The translations under genes were made by a program, and so were the position numbers. From the NCBI RefSeq assembly GCF_022458985.1, contig NC_061789.1, positions 13,114,357 through 13,178,356 on the forward strand: a stretch of 64,000 nt of DNA. Reading direction: 5' to 3'. Under the pieces are notes generated by a model. It was not told the DNA's origin. It did not search any database and saw only the letters and a list, made by a program, of their open reading frames with translations. This stretch comes from Mugil cephalus. Lineage: Eukaryota > Chordata > Actinopteri > Mugiliformes > Mugilidae. Shown in pieces: positions 27,526-59,540 of this stretch (positions are counted from its first letter, which is position 1; each line of letters opens with the position of its first letter).

Positions 27526-29398
<1,873 letters not shown>

Positions 29399-30369: not shown

Positions 30370-31986
30370 TCAGCCGTTGCTGTTGCTACTTGGAGTCCCG
30401 CCGGAGCTGCCACTGCTCTCCCCGAGGTCGTCCTCCTCCACCTCGTGCAGGTCGTCCATCACCTCCAGGCTCTCGCAGATGAGCCCTATCTGCCTCTTCA
30501 TGTGAGCCATGGTGCTCTGCATCCGCCTCATCTTCCTCTGGAGGGCGGTGGCGATGGCCCTGTGGTTCCTCTGCCTGGCCTCGTACTCCTGCCTCAGCTG
30601 CTTGTAGCAGTTGTGCTGCGTCTGGGTGTGGTGGGAGAGTATCGTGCCGCAGCCCATGTGGCACGGCTGGCGCCAGTGCTCGCAGTGGCGCGCGTGGGTC
30701 TCCAGGTCCCTGCGGAGGAGCTGCGCCCTGCAGCCCTGGTACGGGCAGGGGATGAGCTCGTACAGGCAGCTCATGCTGTGGCAGTACTGCTCCGAGAGGG
30801 AGAAGGTCTCGTCGCAGCCACGGATCTCGTTCTTACACTGCCAGATGCACAGGTGGACGAAATAAACACATGACATGCAGAATTGTATGTGTACACACTA
30901 TAAAAATAAGATCATTCACATAAATGCCAATAGAGACGGAGAAAGAACTAGAAAATACTTCTGGAATATAACTGATTAGAGCTGCAGCCTCCACCTAGAT
31001 TCCAGATTTTCTATCCTAGTGTGTTCTCCTCCACATCATTTCATTGTATTGCTGACGTTGTGTTGACAAATAAACTGATGATCCTGTTTCTGACCTTGAT
31101 CTTCATACGGCCAATAGATTTGCTCAGCTTGAACATGACAAAGATCAGGCTCGGGTTAACCGGCTTCCTGCAGCAGGGGCAGGTCTCCTGCCTGTGGAAT
31201 GATAAATTGGGCATCTCTTACAGTTAATAATTTCATCCAATTGACGGCTTTGTTCTTTGTTTATTTTGTGTTTCGTACCTTTTTAGCCACTGTAAGATGC
31301 ATCTCTTGCAGAAAATGTGGTGGCATGCCGCTCTTACAGGACACCTGAGGACCCCCTGGCAAATGGTGCAGATCAGGTCGTAGTCCGGAGCTTCCACAAA
31401 CAGCTCCACGTCATAGCCGCCGCTCTGAGTCGACACCTCTGGGTCCGCCTTGATTTGGCCGATGTAAATACAAACTGTTATTCTGGATTTAACCGTCTTT
31501 AATGAAATTAGAAGGCAAAGGTGTATGGCAGCTGCGGGCCGTGACGGCGACCTGCCCACAATGTATTCAACGTGAAGCAAAGAGACAACAAAACAGAATT
31601 GTTCTGGAAAGTCATATGACCAGTCACATGACTGGCAAAAGCACAATACGTTGAATAACCCAAAATGATTTCAGGACATGAGATCATTTTAAAATGTGTT
31701 CAGCATTATCCGCAATGGTGTTTTTGCTAAACCAAATTCAAAAACCTAACCTAAATTCAAAAACCAAATAAATAAATAAATAAATATTCATACAGCGCTT
31801 TAAAAGACAAAAAATGCTAGGATACACTTCACGGACTAAGGAAAGTAGTTTTTTCTCAAATTAAGGATATAAATTCACATGTACATCCACTACAGTAAAA
31901 ACAAACAAACAACGGAAATTAAAGATGAAAAGAAACACGTATTAAATTAAATAATAAATAAAGAGAAGCTGCCCTATACTCACCAT
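30370..31986 (-). CDS. rnf151: RING finger protein 151-like E3 ubiquitin ligase
   Basis: Four coding exons are proposed: 31984-31986 (ATG alone, followed by GTGAGT), 31279-31448, 31095-31191 and 30370-30837, giving 245 residues, the human RNF151 length. The second exon may instead begin at 31424, eight residues shorter; both keep frame. A C3HC4 RING lies at about residues 29-67: CTICQGVL...CHHIFCKRCI...CPCC. A TRAF-type zinc-finger region follows (GCDETFSLSEQYCHSM...CPYQGC...HARHCEHW...CHMGCG). A predicted coiled coil (YEARQRNHRAIATALQRKMRR) precedes an acidic, Ser/Gly-rich tail. Mammalian RNF151 is testis-biased and implicated in acrosome formation. RNF41 is the nearest alternative family, but the position between rps2 and tbl3 and the length favour RNF151. 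The poly(A) signal is at 30265-30270. Confidence 0.85.
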
Positions 31987-38500: not shown

Positions 38501-41500
38501 AATGGCTACTTCCAGGCTCCACCACATTTCTGATCACCCCCTCAACTAATAAGCTAACATGTTTCTTTTTATATGGTTGCACGGTGTAAATATCAACTTC
38601 TAGATTATAAAGCTCTCTCCATTAACTGTAGGAATGCAAATAATGTTCATTGTTTTACAAGTGAGGTGGTTTATTTATTTCTCAAATCCTGTCTAATACA
38701 CGCACCAGCGGTGACTCAGTCCCAAGCTATGTAAACGGTGTGTATTCAAGTTAATCTTTTCTTAAGAAAGTTTGCTCACTTCTGGATCTGAATACCATTT
38801 GTAAGGTGACGGCAAAGTTTGGGCACGTGTGGGTTTTTTTTTGTTTGTTTGTTTTTTTTGCCTGCTGCACGTACACTCTTCTCATTCAAGATATGCAATG
38901 CAGCAATTTCACAACAGGAACTGTCATTTAGGGCGGCATAGCGGCTAGGTGGTTAGCGCTGATGCCACCCAGCGAGAAGGTCCGGTTTGTCTGAGTGTTA
39001 GACCTGGGATGGCCTGGCCACCTGTCCAGGGTGTACCCCGCCCCTCGTCTAATGACAGCCGGTATAGGCTCCGGCAACCCCCCAGACCCCAGTGAGGATC
39101 AGCGGTAGTAGAAGCTGAGATGAGAATTGTCAAATAGAGGTTTCAGGAGTGTCATTGGTTTTCTTGCAAATTGAACTCCCCTATATTTCCATATAAATTC
39201 TCAATGCAGCTTCTTTGCTGATTTAAACTTTACTGTTAAAAATGATTCCTCATATTATTTACGTCCACGTCTTTCTATATTCCCACAGGATGTGAACAGC
39301 GTTACAGTGTCGCCCAATGACAAGCTCCTGGCCACGGGCTCCCAGGACCGCACGGCCAAGCTGTGGTCGCTGACGGGGGACGGGAACCTGGCCCTGCTGG
39401 GCGTGTTCCGAGGCCACCGTCGCGGCGTTTGGACCGTCTGCTTTTCACCGGTCGACCAGGTGCTGGCCACCTCCTCCGCAGATGGCACCACCAAGCTGTG
39501 GAGCCTGCAGGACTTCAGCTGCCTCAAGGTGAGGGGGACGATAGTGCGTGCACGCGCCACGAATCCCTTTAGTCGTCGGTGTGGACTTTGAAACTTTTTC
39601 CCCTCTTTGTTTTCAAGACGTTCGAGGGCCACGATGCGTCCGTCCTCAAGGTCGTCTTTGTGAGCCGAGGCGCTCAGCTGCTTTCCAGGTAACCGCACTT
39701 CCTCATTATATTAACAAAAGAGGCCTGTTCTGTTACCACGTTGCAGAGAAATGAGTCAGTTCATTTAAAAATAGCAGCTTCGCATTGTGCTGTAGATTAA
39801 GGAAACGAGACGATAAAATGCCTGATTTGCCCTTATCGCATTATCTCAGATGGCTGATTGTTTTGGCTCATTTCAGGGAACCATCATTTGTTAAGCATGT
39901 CGAAAAATGCAAACAAGGCTGTGTTTTAAAAGCAAAGCTATATTCTAAAGATGCTCGTCTGTATCCATGAGATAAAAAAAAAAAAAAAAATTTGTTCCAT
40001 TTGTGCACCGTGATAGACAAGTGTACATCAATTACATCCATAATCGTTTATTATGTCTTCATGCTCGCTGCTATAAGCATGAATTAATATTTTTTATTAG
40101 CTTCAATTTTCAGATGTCGGATTCATATTTTGAACCTTATTCAAAATCTTCACATTTGAAAAGCTTAAACCTAAGAATATTTGCATATTTGCCTGATTAA
40201 ACAAAGTAAAGATTATTTGAATCATCTTTGTTTCAACACTTTTTTCCAACACGCGAGTCCTGTGGTGTGTTTAATTTAATATTTCCTTATCGTGTTCCAC
40301 AGCGGCTCCGATGGTTTGGTAAAGCTGTGGACCATAAAGACCAACGAGTGCGTGAAGACGCTGGATGCCCACCAGGACAAAGTGTGGGGTCTCCACGCCA
40401 GTCACAAGGATGATAAGATGGTGACTGGCTCAGCAGACTCTCATATCACCGTGTGGGTGGTAAGTAGGTTTTGACTGATGGAGGATTTAAGTGGACCAGA
40501 TGATTCTTTGTTAGGCTTCTGATTGGTCTGCTGACCACCAACCAACCCTATTCTTTGTCAAGTCTAGGCTCCCTTTGTTGGGTTAGACAAACAACAGCAA
40601 TGCAGGTATCCATCCCATAGAAAATCCTTCTGATTGGTGGTCGGCAGACCAATCGGAAGACCAGGAAAGTGTCAACCAGCAATCAGACTTCTAAATAGGC
40701 TAAAAATAGTGCTTCAGGAATCAAAAAGCTTCCTTAAAGTGTCACCAATTCATCTAATTTGAATAAACCCAATCAATTCTAGATTGACATGGAAATATGT
40801 GGAATAGTATGACACACAGACCTCTCAACCCAGAAATAAGCACGTGTCACAGTGTTTATTTGTCATTTGACCGTGCACTCGATGCTTCTTTGTTCAGTAT
40901 TTGCATCTAGTGTTTGAGGAGGGGATATCAGGGAGTGGTTCTTACCATGAAGAATGCTTCAGAAACATACTCATTCTTTCTTTATTGCTCTTAGCTTGTT
41001 ATGTTTAGCTGACCATTCATTCTGACTTATCCCTGAACAGGGCGGGTGATTGTACAATGTTAAATATACTTGCCTGTTTGTGCACCGCTAGGATGTCACT
41101 GAAGTGGAGATTGCAGAAGAGCAGGCCAAGCAAGAGGACCAGATCCTCAAGTAAGTTGCAAAGATTGATTATTTTGTCGGATGTTCGTACCTGATATTGA
41201 TATCTGATCCCAAGTGACCAGTTTCAAGTACAACTGTGAACACACCCGAGGTGCACTGAGGACACATTGGAGATCTGGTCACTCAGACTATGATCATAGG
41301 GCGTCTGGGCCACTTGTCAATTCCTGTAAGTGAATTTGGGAATTAACAAATAATATTATTGAGCGTGTTCACACTGTGTCATAAACACAGGGCACAAAAC
41401 TTTGATCGGATCTCGAGACACATTCAAAATATTGGGTGTGAACACAGCATTTTCAGCTGGTTACTTGTAATCTGATCACTGAGAACACATTAAAATGAGT

Positions 41501-46708: not shown

Positions 46709-49662
46709 TCATCGGCTGATTATCTCCGTTTGTGTGGGTGACGCTGCACCTTTGGCTGCATTCTTTCGCGTGACGGTGGTACAGCGGGTGAGGATCTCCT
46801 GAGCCCTTGGTCGAGGTGGCACCTTTGGTAATGTGGGCCCCTTGTAGAGGTTGGGGTCAGAGACACTGGGGATCATCTTCCCCTCTGGGTTGGCGGTCGG
46901 GCTGGACACCGGGCTGAGGCGGTTGCTCACAATTGGCGGAGGCGTGCGGCTGAGACGAAGCTGCTGTTCGTTGAGGCTTTGGCTCAGGTCGAGGAATGAG
47001 CCTGTCGAGGAGGAGACGTCGCTGAAGTCATCGCTGAAGCTGGAGTCGCTGTTGAAGCTGTCCACGCTGTCCACGCTGTTTTGCGTCGGGCTCCTGCCGC
47101 GTTGTACCTCCTCTCCGTCCAGCTCCACCCTGATCATGGGTGGAGGGTTTGGGGAGATGGGTGAGGTGGTTGAGGTGGGTGAGGTGACGTTTGTAGGAGG
47201 TGCAGCATCTCTTGCTGCAGGCGGCACGGGAGGTCGCGGGGAAAACACAGGCCGAGAATGCTCATTGCTGTGTTGCTGGATTGGGGAGGGTGACCTGGCA
47301 GGTGGAAGTTGCAGCAGGTTTCCTTGGGAGTGGCTGTGCTGGGACTGCTGCTCCAGGCTTAAGGAGGCGCCCAAGGAGGTGCCCAGGAGTGGGGTGGAGA
47401 GGCGGCGACCTTGGTGGTGGACTCCCATTTGAATTTGCGGGAACTGGTAGGGCTGCAGGCAAATGGTAGGAATGTAACCTGATTTTCCATTGTATCTGTA
47501 AAAGCACAAACATGGAGAGGTGAAAATAAGCATTCGGTTTACAAACTGAAAACAGCTAGAGGTCCTTACACATGCTTTAACTTCTACTTTATCCATTTTC
47601 GGAGGATCGACTGTAATACCTGATGAGCCACCAGCCGTTTTCAGACTGCTGCAGAACCTCCACCACCGACCCGGTGCTCACGGTGATTTCGTCATCTTTG
47701 GTGGCCTTGTAGCTCTTGACTGCAGTGTAAAGGACTCCTATGGGTGGAATAAATGGCTAAATGTAACGACATGTAATATCCACCCAGAATTTGCCCTACA
47801 TGCAGGTATGCCAGAGATACGGGTGTTGATGTCTTGAGAAAGGGTACAACAAATGCTCTAGCTACAGTATGTGCATACCTCTTTCAGGAATTCCACCATC
47901 ATCATCATCGTCATCCTCATCCTCATCTAGTTTTTCCAGGTAGGGTGCAGGAAACCAGGCCATCTGCTTGTCTTCGTTCTCCACAAGCCACCATCCTGAA
48001 CCAACACACTCACATTGAGACTGCGCCCTGAGAGTATTCTTATCCGTTACTGACCAGACACGCTTGCTCACCTGCTTTGTCTTTGATGAGCACGTCGACT
48101 TTTTCATTCACGGCCACCTTGAAAGGTTTGTTCTTGGTGTCTTTGGTCTCGTACGTGGCCACGCACTTGTACGTCTCCGTGACAAACGGCTGGGTCACGT
48201 TGCCGGTGGTGCCGTGTCCGCCGCTGCCCTTGACTTCGTCGTCTGTGTGCATGATCACGATGCTGAGGATGAGAGAGGCCCATTAGTCTTGAGCTCCATC
48301 CAGATCAGAAAGAAAGAGATTGTCCTTCTGTCAGATGAGGCATTCAGCTTCCTTCCATCTCTTTAGTGCTTGCTCTAACCCTAACTCTAACCCTAGTCTC
48401 AGGCTCTGGGTTGAGACAGTTTGATAATTGTTATTGGCAACGTATAAGTAAAGTTAAATTGAATCAGATTGATTACATCTGAAACCTGAACTGTATGCAT
48501 GGCCTTGTTTCATCTTTGTTACACCTACTGGCTCTTATCTCTTCCTTCCCAAAAAGCCGACAAACTGGAGAAGCTGCTTGGATTGAACTGTTGGCACAGC
48601 GTCTTCAAAAAACTCTACAAGTCCAGTTCCACTTGTTTTGAGCTTTCACTAGATATAGATCCTTCACAGATTTATACAAGGTGTTGTTTGTTTGTTTTTT
48701 TTAGTTCTTGGACGTGATTATGAAAAAAAAAAAAAAAAAGAGGTTAAGCCGGTTAGTAAGGGGGTAGTACCATGTAAGTATTTACTTCTTTGAACTATTT
48801 TTGAAAATCAACTTGCAAAAAAAACATGTGTAACAATTTTTTATTTTGTTTTCTTTATTTTCACTGCCACCATTTATTGTGGAAGTTTTCTCAAATCAGC
48901 TCTAAATGATTACTGAAGACATTTTCAATATAGGTTGCAATGTGACATGCTCTGTTATAGGCGCTGACATCGACAATACAGTTGCTAGAGCTAGTTGTTT
49001 AACCTACCTGTCCTTTGCGAAATCCGGTTGCAGGTCCTTGCCTTTAGGGGTAAAAAACTGGATGAGCTCCCTACACTGGGAGACTCTCGGGTCGCAGCTC
49101 AGAAGTTCATTACAGTATTTCTGCAAAAACTTCAGGAGGACCAGGACCTTGGCCGTGCCTTTCTTCTGACTGCTGCGCTTCAACCTCCTGTCTAAAAGCA
49201 CACAGGACTCTTTCAGTACTCATCCGTCAGGAGTGCAACTGGGTTCAGCCCAGACGTGTAAATAATGCACACTTACATTGAAATCTCGGGATGATTCTGT
49301 CAGATTTTTTTAATTTGTTCGCTGGCATGAATGCTTTCTTCAGTTGCTTCTGCAGGAAATAAACAGCAAACAAAGGTGAGCGTGCACGTGCAAGTGAGAG
49401 GCATGAATGAGGCTTGTAGCTCGTTCTACACTCACATGCAGTTTCTTGAAATCCTGAAAGCTTCTGTACACCACGATTTCATCCTTGTCCGACCAAAGCA
49501 CAGAGGTCATGTACATCTGGAAGAAGAAAAATGCGGAATTTTATCACAAATTCTAAAAGAAAAAGAAATGTAATAAACAACTCTATGCGCGCTTACTTTA
49601 CACTTGTCCTTGTGTATCACTCCAGCTAAACGGACGCTCATTGGATATCGCTGAGGCTCCAT
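46709..49662 (-). CDS. noxo1: NADPH oxidase organizer 1-like (PX + two SH3)
   Basis: NOXO1 anchors NADPH oxidase (NOX1) to membrane lipids and recruits NOXA1. Eight coding exons: 49597-49662, 49436-49516, 49277-49349, 49008-49191, 48072-48262, 47879-47995, 47620-47737 and 46709-47495, in frame, 538 residues. The PX domain is residues 1-~130 ([33 protein letters not shown]). The first SH3 is about 166-223 (YKCVATYE...[20 protein letters not shown]), followed by an acidic run ([10 protein letters not shown]). The second SH3 is about 240-290 ([20 protein letters not shown]...GWWLI). A long Pro/Ser-rich region ends with the PxxP segment [20 protein letters not shown]. It is longer than human NOXO1 (about 370). 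p47phox (NCF1) is the paralogue alternative; the absence of an evident autoinhibitory arginine-rich linker and the position next to tbl3 favour NOXO1. The poly(A) signal is at 46432-46437. Confidence 0.88.
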
Positions 49663-55193: not shown

Positions 55194-55488
55194 AAGCAGC
55201 TAACAAGTTAGCAACTGCCTGCACAAATGCTGACTTTGCATTATAAATATTAAAAAAAAAACAATATTAATAAACAAACTAATAACAATAACAATTCACC
55301 TGCAATACGACCTCGACGTCGTAGGAGTTGCCTTTGCTCTTCTGGTAACCGCGAAACTGCGAGCCGCTGTACAGGAGCGAGGTGGCCACCCCCGGCTGGT
55401 GGGTGTTGATCGGGGCAGGGGGAACAAGAGAGGCCGAGGACGGGCAGGCCGAGCCGGTCGCTCTGTAGCACTCCGCTCGGACTGGCAT
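52163..55488 (-). CDS. gid4: GID/CTLH E3 ligase substrate receptor GID4
   Basis: GID4 is the substrate-recognition subunit of the GID/CTLH ubiquitin ligase, binding Pro/N-degrons in a beta-barrel. Six coding exons: 55300-55488, 54793-54852, 53828-53935, 52541-52642, 52315-52445 and 52163-52226, in frame, 217 residues from MPVRAEC. Conserved stretches are [114 protein letters not shown] and SMPIYEFR at the end. In-frame ATGs at 55602 and 55524 would add an N-terminal extension as in human isoforms. The poly(A) signal near 50850-50855 implies a 3' UTR of about 1.3 kb. Orientation next to drc3 is as in the human 17p11.2 block, but ATPAF2, which lies between them in human, is absent. Confidence 0.96.
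52693..52835. repeat. Dispersed repeat fragment
   Basis: CCCGTTCACACCAGGTGTTAGCATG, or close to it, then CCGGACGATCAGATCAACC, GTGTGAACACATGGACACA and TCTGAGATCTGTTTACGGA. It shares words with 41200-41490. It lies in gid4 intron 3, close to exon 4. Confidence 0.5.
53727..53802. repeat. (AT)23(GT)15 compound microsatellite
   Basis: 46 bases of AT followed directly by 30 bases of GT. It lies 25 bases from the gid4 exon 3 donor (exon edge at 53828). Confidence 0.97.
54173..54420 (-). repeat. Degenerate short inverted-repeat element
   Basis: The block TACAACAGTCCTGCACTAAATC is the reverse complement of the GTGCAGGACTGTTACATTA block at 1235-1317. A following TTAGATTGTGTTG...TGTTATTCTGAAC stretch is repeat-like. 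It lies in gid4 intron 2. Boundaries are approximate. Confidence 0.4.
55163..55189. repeat. A27 homopolymer
   Basis: An uninterrupted adenine run in gid4 intron 1. No attached retrotransposon body was recognised. Confidence 0.9.
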
Positions 55489-56370
55489 GATGAGCGCTAA
55501 GGTGCCTCCGTCAGCAACCGTCATTAACTTTGCGACCGAGCACAACACCGCAGCTTGGGGAGGAAATGGGGCGCTGACAGAGGAGGCTCGGCCAAACTGC
55601 ACGCCACCGAGTCCAAACTTTCCTCAGATATCTGAGGTTTCTATGAAACTGACGGCTGGTTGAGGGGCTGCAGCGTTTCATTTGAGAATCCAGCGTCCCC
55701 GAATTTCATTGGCTAGAAACTGGTGCTCGCCCGGAGGAGGATTCTTATTGGACAGTGAGCCGCAATGTATTCTGGGTGTTGTATTGCCCTCCCACCACTC
55801 CTATCAGGAGCTAGGGTACAAGATGGAAACTCAATGTTTTGGTGACTATTTTTAATACTGTAGTTTAATATTGAAATACAGGAATACATATATTAACGAT
55901 TCAAAACATTACAGTGTGTCTTCGAAATAAATAAAGCGCTCATATGATCGAATTATGTTAAAATTGTATTTTTTTTCTCATTCAAATTTCAAATGTTAAT
56001 TGTAGGTTCTCCTCAAAGGGATACAACATTATATTTCACTATACATATTCTTTGTGGTAATTAAGCCTTTCAGTTCTTGAATTCAGTTTAATAATTTTAT
56101 ATTTGAAGGAGGCAACTTTTAAGGACATATTGTAGAAGTAATGGTCAAAAAACACACACACACGTATATATATACACACACACATGTTGTTTTAATCTCA
56201 AAACAGGCAGCAAAAATGACAAGCGCAGGGGTAGTTATAGCTTTTTTTAATACATATGACCTTTTCAGAAGACATAATTTTTTATTTGTACACAATGGGA
56301 TTTTGTTACAGTTGTCTGACGAAGGTGTGAGTATACACACACAAAAAAAACAAACGACCTATTGATCTTG

Positions 56371-59300
56371 CTAGCTCATCTCCTCCAGTTGTTCTTTCAG
56401 ACGGTCCATGTATGTGTTCATGTCTGAGATGCACATGCGGTTCCGCTCAGTTTCTTTGTCTTGAATCTGCAATAACCCGTGAAGGCAAACGGCAAAATTT
56501 AAAAAAAGACTGTGAGACGAATATGGGAGGTTTGTCATCCATGATAAAATACACGCTTCATGATATCTACCCCTTTAAATAGTGTCCCCTTCCAGGTGCT
56601 GACGCAGGTAACCAGCTGAGTCTCCCGATCATTGATCTTCACAACGTGGTTATCGTGGCCAGTGGCTAGTGCGTCCATCACTGCGTCTTTGTCCGCAAAC
56701 AGCTACACGTGGGAAATGCAAGCAAAGGAACAAGGGCAGTGATTTATTTCTGTCATCAGCGTTCACATTAGGCTATTCAAATATCATACTGGTTGTAATC
56801 ACTGATCAAAAGATATGTCATATACAAACTCTATTTCTATCATGTTGGACTAAAAGGGACATCACTGACCATCACGACGTCGCTTGACATCGCCTCATCC
56901 AACTCGCTTTTGGCGACCTTCTGCAGAGTTTCATTAGCAACTTCCTTCACGTTCTGATAGTAGACGTCCTCCAGATCTCGACATCGGGCGAACGTATGAA
57001 TGTGTCAAAGAAATCACATGCATGATGGTGAAACATCAGCGTCAGCTGAAACGATTCAGAGGTGTAACGCGGGGTGACAGCAGAAGGATATGTTTCTTGA
57101 ACAGTTTCGCTGAAGCTGCCAACCATGTCCGAGATGCTGCCGTCAAGGTTTTTGATGTTTTCCTGAAATGAAGAGGAAGGCGTCGCCGTGGGTGAGAATT
57201 TAAAGTAGCACACAGCATCAGAACGAAATGCGCACGCCCTACCTCCAGCAGAGTGACCAGCTGAAACTCCAGCTCCATGAGGCTTTGACAGAGCTGGTTG
57301 ACCTCATCGTTGCAATGCTTGAGCTTGGCCTTAAATAAATCTGGGTCTGATAACTGCTGCAACTCCGCTATCCTCTATAAAGAACAAGACATAATCCTAT
57401 GCTAATTACTAATATCAGATGTACAGAGTTACTGAATCTATGCAACTCTGCTTGAAAGGCCAGAAAACGTCTCGTTAGAATATGATGGTCCTCTCAGCTT
57501 GCCTCGCTGTGTTGCTGATCAAAAGCTGCCAACGTCTGCGACGCTTTCCGTTGGTAGTGCTCCACAGTCTTCCGCTGACCATCGAAGAAGGAGTCCACCA
57601 GTGTCTTTCTTTTTTCATGTTCAGCCAAGCCCGTTTCAAACAGCTGCACACACGCCTCCACCATCTGTTGTTCAAATGTAAATGCAAGGTCAAGGAACTC
57701 AAGGAACTCGGCTTCTGCGCTATCGATAAAACACCTGCGTGGATTTGAAAGCCAGGGCAAGGATATGTCTGAAGCAGAGCGTCCATTCCCGGAGCACAGC
57801 GCAGCGTCTCCGCCTCCGGATCGTCTTTAAACATGCTCTTAAACAGATCTGGCCCGTTGAGGAACTCCACGAAGGCATCCTGCGAGACAGGAGAGCTTAA
57901 GTGACGCATGTGACGCATATACACGTACACATCTGCACGAACAAACCTGAACTTAAATTACTTTGTGCAATTGGAGCTCCGCCTCTTTACTTTGGTGAGT
58001 CTCAGTGGTTTGTTGTTTCTGTGACTCTTCAAGTCTCATTTTCTCCAGGATATGCGGGTATTTGACCATTGCTTCTTTTCTCTGTATTATTTAATCATAT
58101 AGGATCAACATGACTGATTATTAAGGGCCCTGAGGATAACAATGTTGTCTTAAAACCAAGATTACATTACAACTTACATGACTACAGTCAATTGTGAACT
58201 GGATTCGTTTATACTTACAGTATTCTTGTCAATGTATCTGTAGTCCAGGAACATCAAGTCTGGAAAATAGGCAGCGATGAAGAATGTGTAATCGTCAGCC
58301 TTGGAGACAGGATTCCCAGATAAGATGACCGTGAACAGTTTCTTCAACTTCCTGATGTAGAGCACCTTTGAAATGTATCAAATATGCATAAGGTTATGTA
58401 AAATATATGTCTTCAGCAGTTGCACAACCGCCCGACTGTTTCACACGTTTGAAACAAAAAAAAGTATATTTGAACCTGTGTATTATTTGAATAGCTTAAC
58501 ATTGAATATAAAATGATAATAATAATGTATATTTATAAATAGCACTAAGCTGAGTTTAATATAGAACACATATAGTAGGTAGGGGGTCCTTGGCCCGATA
58601 AACTTTGCAGACCCCTGATGTATAACATTCACTGGCGTGGTACATTTAATTTTTCCCTCTTACATTTTCTAGCTGACTGAGGAGGTTGTTTGCAAAGATG
58701 AAATGGGTGAGGTTCTCGAGCGTATCCACGTTTTCGATGACAGAGATCTTGTTGTTGGACAAATTCAGCACTTCAAGCCTCCGCAGAGCCTCCAGACCCT
58801 CAATTCTCTCGATTCCGTTGAACGACAGGTCTAAAAGAGACATTTAAAGTGTCGCTACGATCGTTTCTGTGCAGATCTCAGGTGTTGTCTACGAGAAAAT
58901 GTAATCGGAAAGTTTCTTCTTACTAAGCCATGTCAGATTAATCAGGTGGTCCAGGCCCTCAATCTTCTCTATGAGGTTGTTATTCAAGTCAAGTCTGGTC
59001 AAGGAGGTGTATTCCCACAAGTGGTCAATCTTGTGGATTTCTGTAAACCGATAAACTCTCAAAATAAACTCTCACACAACTAAACCCAGAACACATTGAA
59101 ACTCATTGTTTTTTTTAACTTTTCCTCACTTGTGTATTCCATGTGTAATTCGAGGACTTCACTACAGTGGGTTCCCACAGGATAAGGCTTACAAGATTTG
59201 TCAGAGCTCATGATGTTGTTAGTGCCGTTGGAAGTAGGCTTGGCTTCACTTTTCTCTGTCAAAAGAAAGAGAAATACACAATATTTTGTTACTTTGAAGC

Positions 59301-59540
59301 TTGTTTTTCTCACATAAACACTGTGCGATATAAAGGAGTAGAAACACTGGATGGTGTTGTTCGTTTTGTGTTATTTATTATGTAAAACTGAAACCTAGAT
59401 AGTAGAATAGTTTAACAGAGTAAACGTTAATACTATCACAATATGACAAACTAGATTTTTTTTCACTCTTTCATGCAACGATCTCAAAAAGCATCATTAA
59501 TTAAAACTTTACTACCTTCATAAAGTCCGTGCGGAACCAT
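56371..59540 (-). CDS. drc3: Dynein regulatory complex subunit 3 (LRRC48)
   Basis: DRC3 is a nexin-dynein regulatory complex subunit of motile cilia and sperm flagella. Thirteen coding exons: 59516-59540, 59130-59255, 58924-59040, 58664-58830, 58219-58365, 57962-58081, 57767-57879, 57503-57677, 57243-57374, 57092-57162, 56870-56993, 56571-56702 and 56371-56466, giving 514 residues (human 523). Leucine-rich repeats fill about residues 45-190 (LTRLDLNNNLIEKIEGL, LEVLNLSNNKISVIENV, LFTVILSGNPVSKADDY, PDLMFLDYRYID). Coiled coil follows to the end (for example FETGLAEHEKRKTLVDSFF and RCRDLEDVYYQNV). Introns 7 and 10 are AT-AC, U12 type. Intron 8 uses a GC donor. Frame is kept only with these noncanonical borders. 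An X-box-like RFX site lies about 20 bases 5' of the ATG. The poly(A) signal is near 56280. Confidence 0.93.
56994..57091 (-). other. drc3: U12-type AT-AC intron (drc3 intron 10)
   Basis: This is a 98-nt intron that also begins ATATCCTT, with TTCTTTGAC as branch site (A 12 nt from the end) and ending CATAC. Splicing joins GTT CAA GAA AC|G TTC GCC to read VQETFARCRDLEDVYYQNVKE, matching the DRC3 CRDLE region. Reading through gives an unrelated tail and stop. Confidence 0.92.
57678..57766 (-). other. drc3: U12-type AT-AC intron (drc3 intron 7)
   Basis: This is an 89-nt intron on the minus strand. It begins ATATCCTT (the exact U12 AT-AC 5' consensus), has TTCCTTGAC as a near-perfect branch site with the branch A 12 nt from the end, and ends TTTAC. 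Splicing at these borders turns CAG AC|A TTT GAA into LLQTFEQQMVEACVQLFETG, which matches the DRC3 family. No GT-AG alternative gives that frame. Confidence 0.93.

Follow-up and report, generated by a model that had tools for sequence, protein, structure and literature searches.

Two probable U12-type AT-AC introns in the drc3 (LRRC48) gene

Introduction

Genes with two minor (U12-type) introns are known, and uncommon. In human and mouse alike, 50 genes are reported to carry two minor introns and a further 3 to carry three (PMC6717393), and about 50 human genes with two U12 introns are likewise given in PMC3584512. Most of the genes for the alpha-subunits of mammalian sodium and calcium channels have two minor introns (PMC2831892), and minor introns have been reported to cluster within genes above chance in all 21 of 21 genomes tested (PMC7367187). 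Introns with AT-AC ends form a minority of the class, making up ~22% of human and ~24% of mouse minor introns (PMC6717393), and ~26% of those in human according to another survey (PMC10639083). Because of these shares, and with only about 50 human two-minor-intron genes among which to find them, genes with two AT-AC introns should be scarce and make up a small part of the two-minor-intron genes.

It is the 5' splice site and the branch sequence, rather than the terminal letters, that define the class of an intron, and the optimal distance of a U12 branch site is 11-13 nt (PMC3584512). Here we describe two AT-AC introns in drc3, a gene lying in a 64-kb window (the whole stretch of DNA that was analysed; all positions refer to it). 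The gene content of the window and its compact introns point to a fish as the probable source. The initial annotation of this locus had called two such introns in one gene unusual, a view which holds in so far as a pair of AT-AC introns should be scarce, and does not hold for two U12 introns as such, a state already known.

Results

The drc3 (LRRC48) gene model lies on the reverse strand at 56371..59540 and comprises 13 coding exons and 12 introns. Joining the exons at splice signals gives a 491-aa open frame (59211 to 56371, reverse strand), which becomes 514 aa when the short first exon 59540-59516, the basis of which is splice signals and open frame only, is joined to 59255. In a phmmer search of the PDB with the drc3 protein, the three best matches were all named 'Dynein regulatory complex subunit 3' (8j07_3, E 6.6e-116; 9fqr_Qv, 2.2e-108; 8glv_Em, 1.9e-55), and Pfam identified leucine-rich repeats (LRR_4, LRR_9 and LRR_8) in the product; the gene is therefore drc3, the name it had been given from the outset. 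The alignment with 8j07_3 covers residues 16-489 of the 491-aa query and starts at residue 42 of the chain. The N-terminal end (59211-59130, reverse strand) is poorly matched to the solved DRC3 chains.

By their ends, the 12 introns, the median length of which is 101 nt, divide into nine GT-AG, one GC-AG and two AT-AC. The first AT-AC intron, the seventh of the gene (57678..57766, reverse strand), is 89 nt long, and the second, the tenth of the gene (56994..57091, reverse strand), is 98 nt long. Both are in phase 2, both have a ATATCCTT donor (8/8 bases in each) and both end in AC; the exon before each also ends in AC, with the codon split after its second base. Matches to the branch-site motif are found at 57689..57697 in the first intron (TTCCTTGAC, reverse strand) and at 57004..57012 in the second (TTCTTTGAC, reverse strand). 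The first intron ends 12 nt from its branch A and the second 11 nt from its own, the nine-base motif being followed by 11 and 10 nt, respectively. A ATATCCTT-like 5' splice site is the consensus of U12-type AT-AC introns and TTCCTTRAC the usual consensus of the U12 branch site, from which the TTCTTTGAC motif of the second intron is one base away. The initial annotation was exact as to the coordinates and lengths, and the features that it had listed, i.e. identical ATATCCTT donors, TTCYTTGAC motifs, AC ends, phase 2 and a preceding exon ending in AC, were all seen; its branch distance of 12 nt applies to the first intron, the second having 11. Lengths that it had singled out as near minimal, i.e. 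89 and 98 nt, are ordinary beside the gene median.

At the branch site of the first AT-AC intron there is a tandem pair, TTCCTTGAG-TTCCTTGAC (57706-57689, reverse strand), in which TTCCTTGAG is a near-copy of its neighbour; the tandem is possibly a small duplication. U12 introns are typically without a distinct polypyrimidine tract before their 3' end; by a crude count, pyrimidines occupy 14/20 and 13/20 positions of the last stretch in the two AT-AC introns, values that fall inside the span of 10-16/20 seen in the ten other drc3 introns, such that this count does not show the absence of a tract. The drc3 frame is open throughout after both AT-AC introns are spliced out. Both have lengths of the form 3n+2, such that keeping either shifts the frame, and neither contains a stop codon in the read-through frame; retention of one of them would therefore act via the frame shift.

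To estimate how often such a combination of signals arises by chance, the 64-kb window was dinucleotide-shuffled 200 times and both strands were scanned for the joint pattern, a ATATCCTT donor with TTCYTTRAC and an appropriately spaced AC no more than 2 kb downstream. On average, 0.03 such donors were present per shuffled window versus 2 in the real window, both of the latter belonging to the drc3 AT-AC introns; the joint pattern in drc3 is not due to chance. Five ATATCCTT sites are present in the window, two of which are the drc3 AT-AC donors, as are three TTCYTTGAC sites, two of which are the drc3 AT-AC branch sites. For the other three ATATCCTT sites, and for both GTATCCTT sites, no fitting branch site with an AC or AG acceptor was found within 3 kb using a slightly looser branch pattern. 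No Rfam family reached its gathering score in a search of the whole window.

The borders of both introns were tested without use of the donor and branch motifs. The candidates were all introns of 40 nt or more that had GT-AG, GC-AG, AT-AC, GT-AC or AT-AG ends and at least 30 nt of flank; the joined exons were translated and aligned to the matching stretch of a single reference protein chain, 8j07_3. The AT-AC intron ranked first at both places, among 831 candidates with a score of 191 (next, 180) at the first and among 396 with a score of 124 (next, 110) at the second; retention of the AT-AC segment scored 45 and 1, respectively, versus the same chain. The alignments to 8j07_3 and 9fqr_Qv are gap-free across both AT-AC junctions; with the more distant chain 8glv_Em there is a one-residue gap five residues past the first junction, the second junction being gap-free.

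Between the two AT-AC introns lies a block (57092..57677, reverse strand) of three exons and two major-type introns, which is bounded on both sides by phase 2. Its exons, of 175, 132 and 71 nt, add up to 378 nt, i.e. 126 codons. The AT-AC introns had been described as about 370 nt apart in the pre-mRNA; the actual distance is 586 nt (57677-57092), and ~370 nt agrees instead with the 378 nt of exon that remain between them after splicing. The GC-AG intron (57375..57502, reverse strand; GAG|GCAAGC...TATAG), the borders of which were deduced from the sequence together with the open frame, sits between both AT-AC introns, and non-GT-AG ends are thus present in 3/12 drc3 introns.

Several further genes were recognised in the window. 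Just downstream of drc3 and on the same strand is a gid4-like gene (55623-53723, reverse strand), with a Pfam Vac_ImportDeg match at 54049-53723. Its likely first exon (55279-55623), presumably of gid4, matched no Pfam family; the proximity of drc3 to gid4 agrees with the human gene neighbourhood. On the reverse strand there are also a ribosomal S5-family protein (27632-28459), which we take to be rps2-like, ribosomal L3 (23109-23468) and a RING-finger protein (31233-31670); a WD40 protein, in our view tbl3-like, is at 39175-39591 on the forward strand. A frame at 46709-47677 (reverse strand), presumably noxo1-like, has a weak match to the p47phox C-terminal domain (23.1 bits, below the curated cut-off of 27). 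Pfam analysis of 10 frames of the window left 4 without a family, the gid4 first exon being among these.

Discussion

We put at about 95% the probability that both segments are genuine U12-type (minor) AT-AC introns of drc3, a class which is assigned here from sequence signals; the other ten introns of the gene look to be of the major type. Since donor, branch motif and branch distance in both introns are those of the minor class, their removal by U11, U12, U4atac and U6atac is the natural reading. U11 would pair with the ATATCCTT donor and U12 with the branch motif, which lies 11-12 nt from the AC end, and U4atac/U6atac would drive removal of the intron. Excision restores the DRC3 reading frame, which is shifted by failure at either AT-AC site.

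Open, in-frame GT-AG choices are present at both places (28/125 at the first and 30/83 at the second), and the segments might be removed as conventional GT-AG or GC-AG introns with borders close by, the AT-AC reading being coincidental. The border test makes this extremely unlikely: the best GT-AG choices score 172 and 84, and the best GC-AG choices 175 and 89, against 191 and 124 for the AT-AC introns, the lower values arising because each such choice inserts or deletes residues next to a conserved stretch. If the borders are as proposed, the AT-AC ends alone still leave the class undecided, and for one human SCN4A intron with AT-AC ends, removal is by the major (U2) spliceosome (PMC2831892). 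The U2-type AT-AC introns of sodium channels have, however, a G at +5 (PMC2831892), whereas the drc3 donors have a C at +5 within the full ATATCCTT sequence, and a correctly spaced U12 branch motif accompanies each; because of the difference at +5, removal of the drc3 AT-AC introns by the major spliceosome is scarcely credible.

Given real U12 introns, one could have been copied from the other by intron duplication, an origin which the initial annotation had raised, and the first eight bases, the phase and the preceding AC are indeed common to both. The shared ends are, however, the class consensus, and the intron bodies, once the splice signals are removed, align no better than shuffled sequence (-19 versus -18.7 +/- 4.0 in 500 shuffles); there is no signal of duplication beyond the splice motifs and we consider a copying event exceedingly improbable. 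The shared phase is unremarkable because minor introns are biased away from phase 0, which accounts for ~22% of them (PMC10639083). Most likely, both AT-AC introns are old and inherited, rather than recent duplicates. Ancient conservation of the two is likely on general grounds, and old inheritance is the default reading because 91% of human minor introns have been reported to be conserved in zebrafish (earlier work cited in PMC10639083).

The arrangement of the pair also brings to mind an in-frame bypass, in which the minor spliceosome alone would connect the donor at 57766 with the acceptor at 56994. Such a join, which is also listed by the motif scans as a donor-acceptor pair, would leave the frame intact while skipping exactly 378 nt, or 126 codons (18 x 7 residues), the skipped block consisting of whole codons because both AT-AC introns are in phase 2; the junction threonine is kept and the resulting protein is open over 365 aa, counted without the short first exon. 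If the bypass is used, there would be a shorter DRC3 without a block of its C-terminal half. To our knowledge, minor and major splice sites are not expected to join each other, and the amount of the short form would therefore track minor-spliceosome activity. We hold use of the bypass to be very unlikely, because the two major-type introns within the block must then be ignored. No clear heptad pattern was seen around the block of 126 codons, and the 18 x 7 figure may for this reason be mere coincidence.

If both introns are of the U12 type, it would follow that drc3 is doubly dependent on the minor spliceosome. Axonemal DRC3 would then need this machinery twice, and may serve as a marker for minor-splicing defects that reach motile cilia. 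In mouse, a recessive missense mutation of Lrrc48, with the transcript also lowered, is reported to be associated with hydrocephalus, laterality defects and male infertility (PMC4978901). How minor splicing relates to ciliary genes is under active study, as in PMC13216214, the main text of which names neither drc3 nor lrrc48. Among the papers examined from a search of PMC full text, none described drc3/LRRC48 as a minor-intron gene; the minor-intron catalogues, which lie outside that search, may well list both introns. LRRC48 and U12 did occur together there in a hydrocephalus paper, in the available text of which the two terms are unconnected.

The AT-AC introns of drc3 are not a new kind of intron. 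They resemble the vertebrate U12-type AT-AC introns catalogued in U12DB, IAOD and MIDB in donor, branch motif, branch distance, AC end and non-zero phase, with no difference found in the drc3 introns themselves. The gene product is similar to DRC3/LRRC48 of the nexin-dynein regulatory complex in having leucine-rich repeats and a long C-terminal part, and differs in that query residues before 16 are unmatched to the two best chains. The voltage-gated sodium and calcium channel genes share with drc3 the presence of two minor introns per gene (PMC2831892, PMC3584512), but belong to an unrelated family, whereas drc3 encodes a structural protein of motile cilia and has two short AT-AC introns that lie 586 nt apart.
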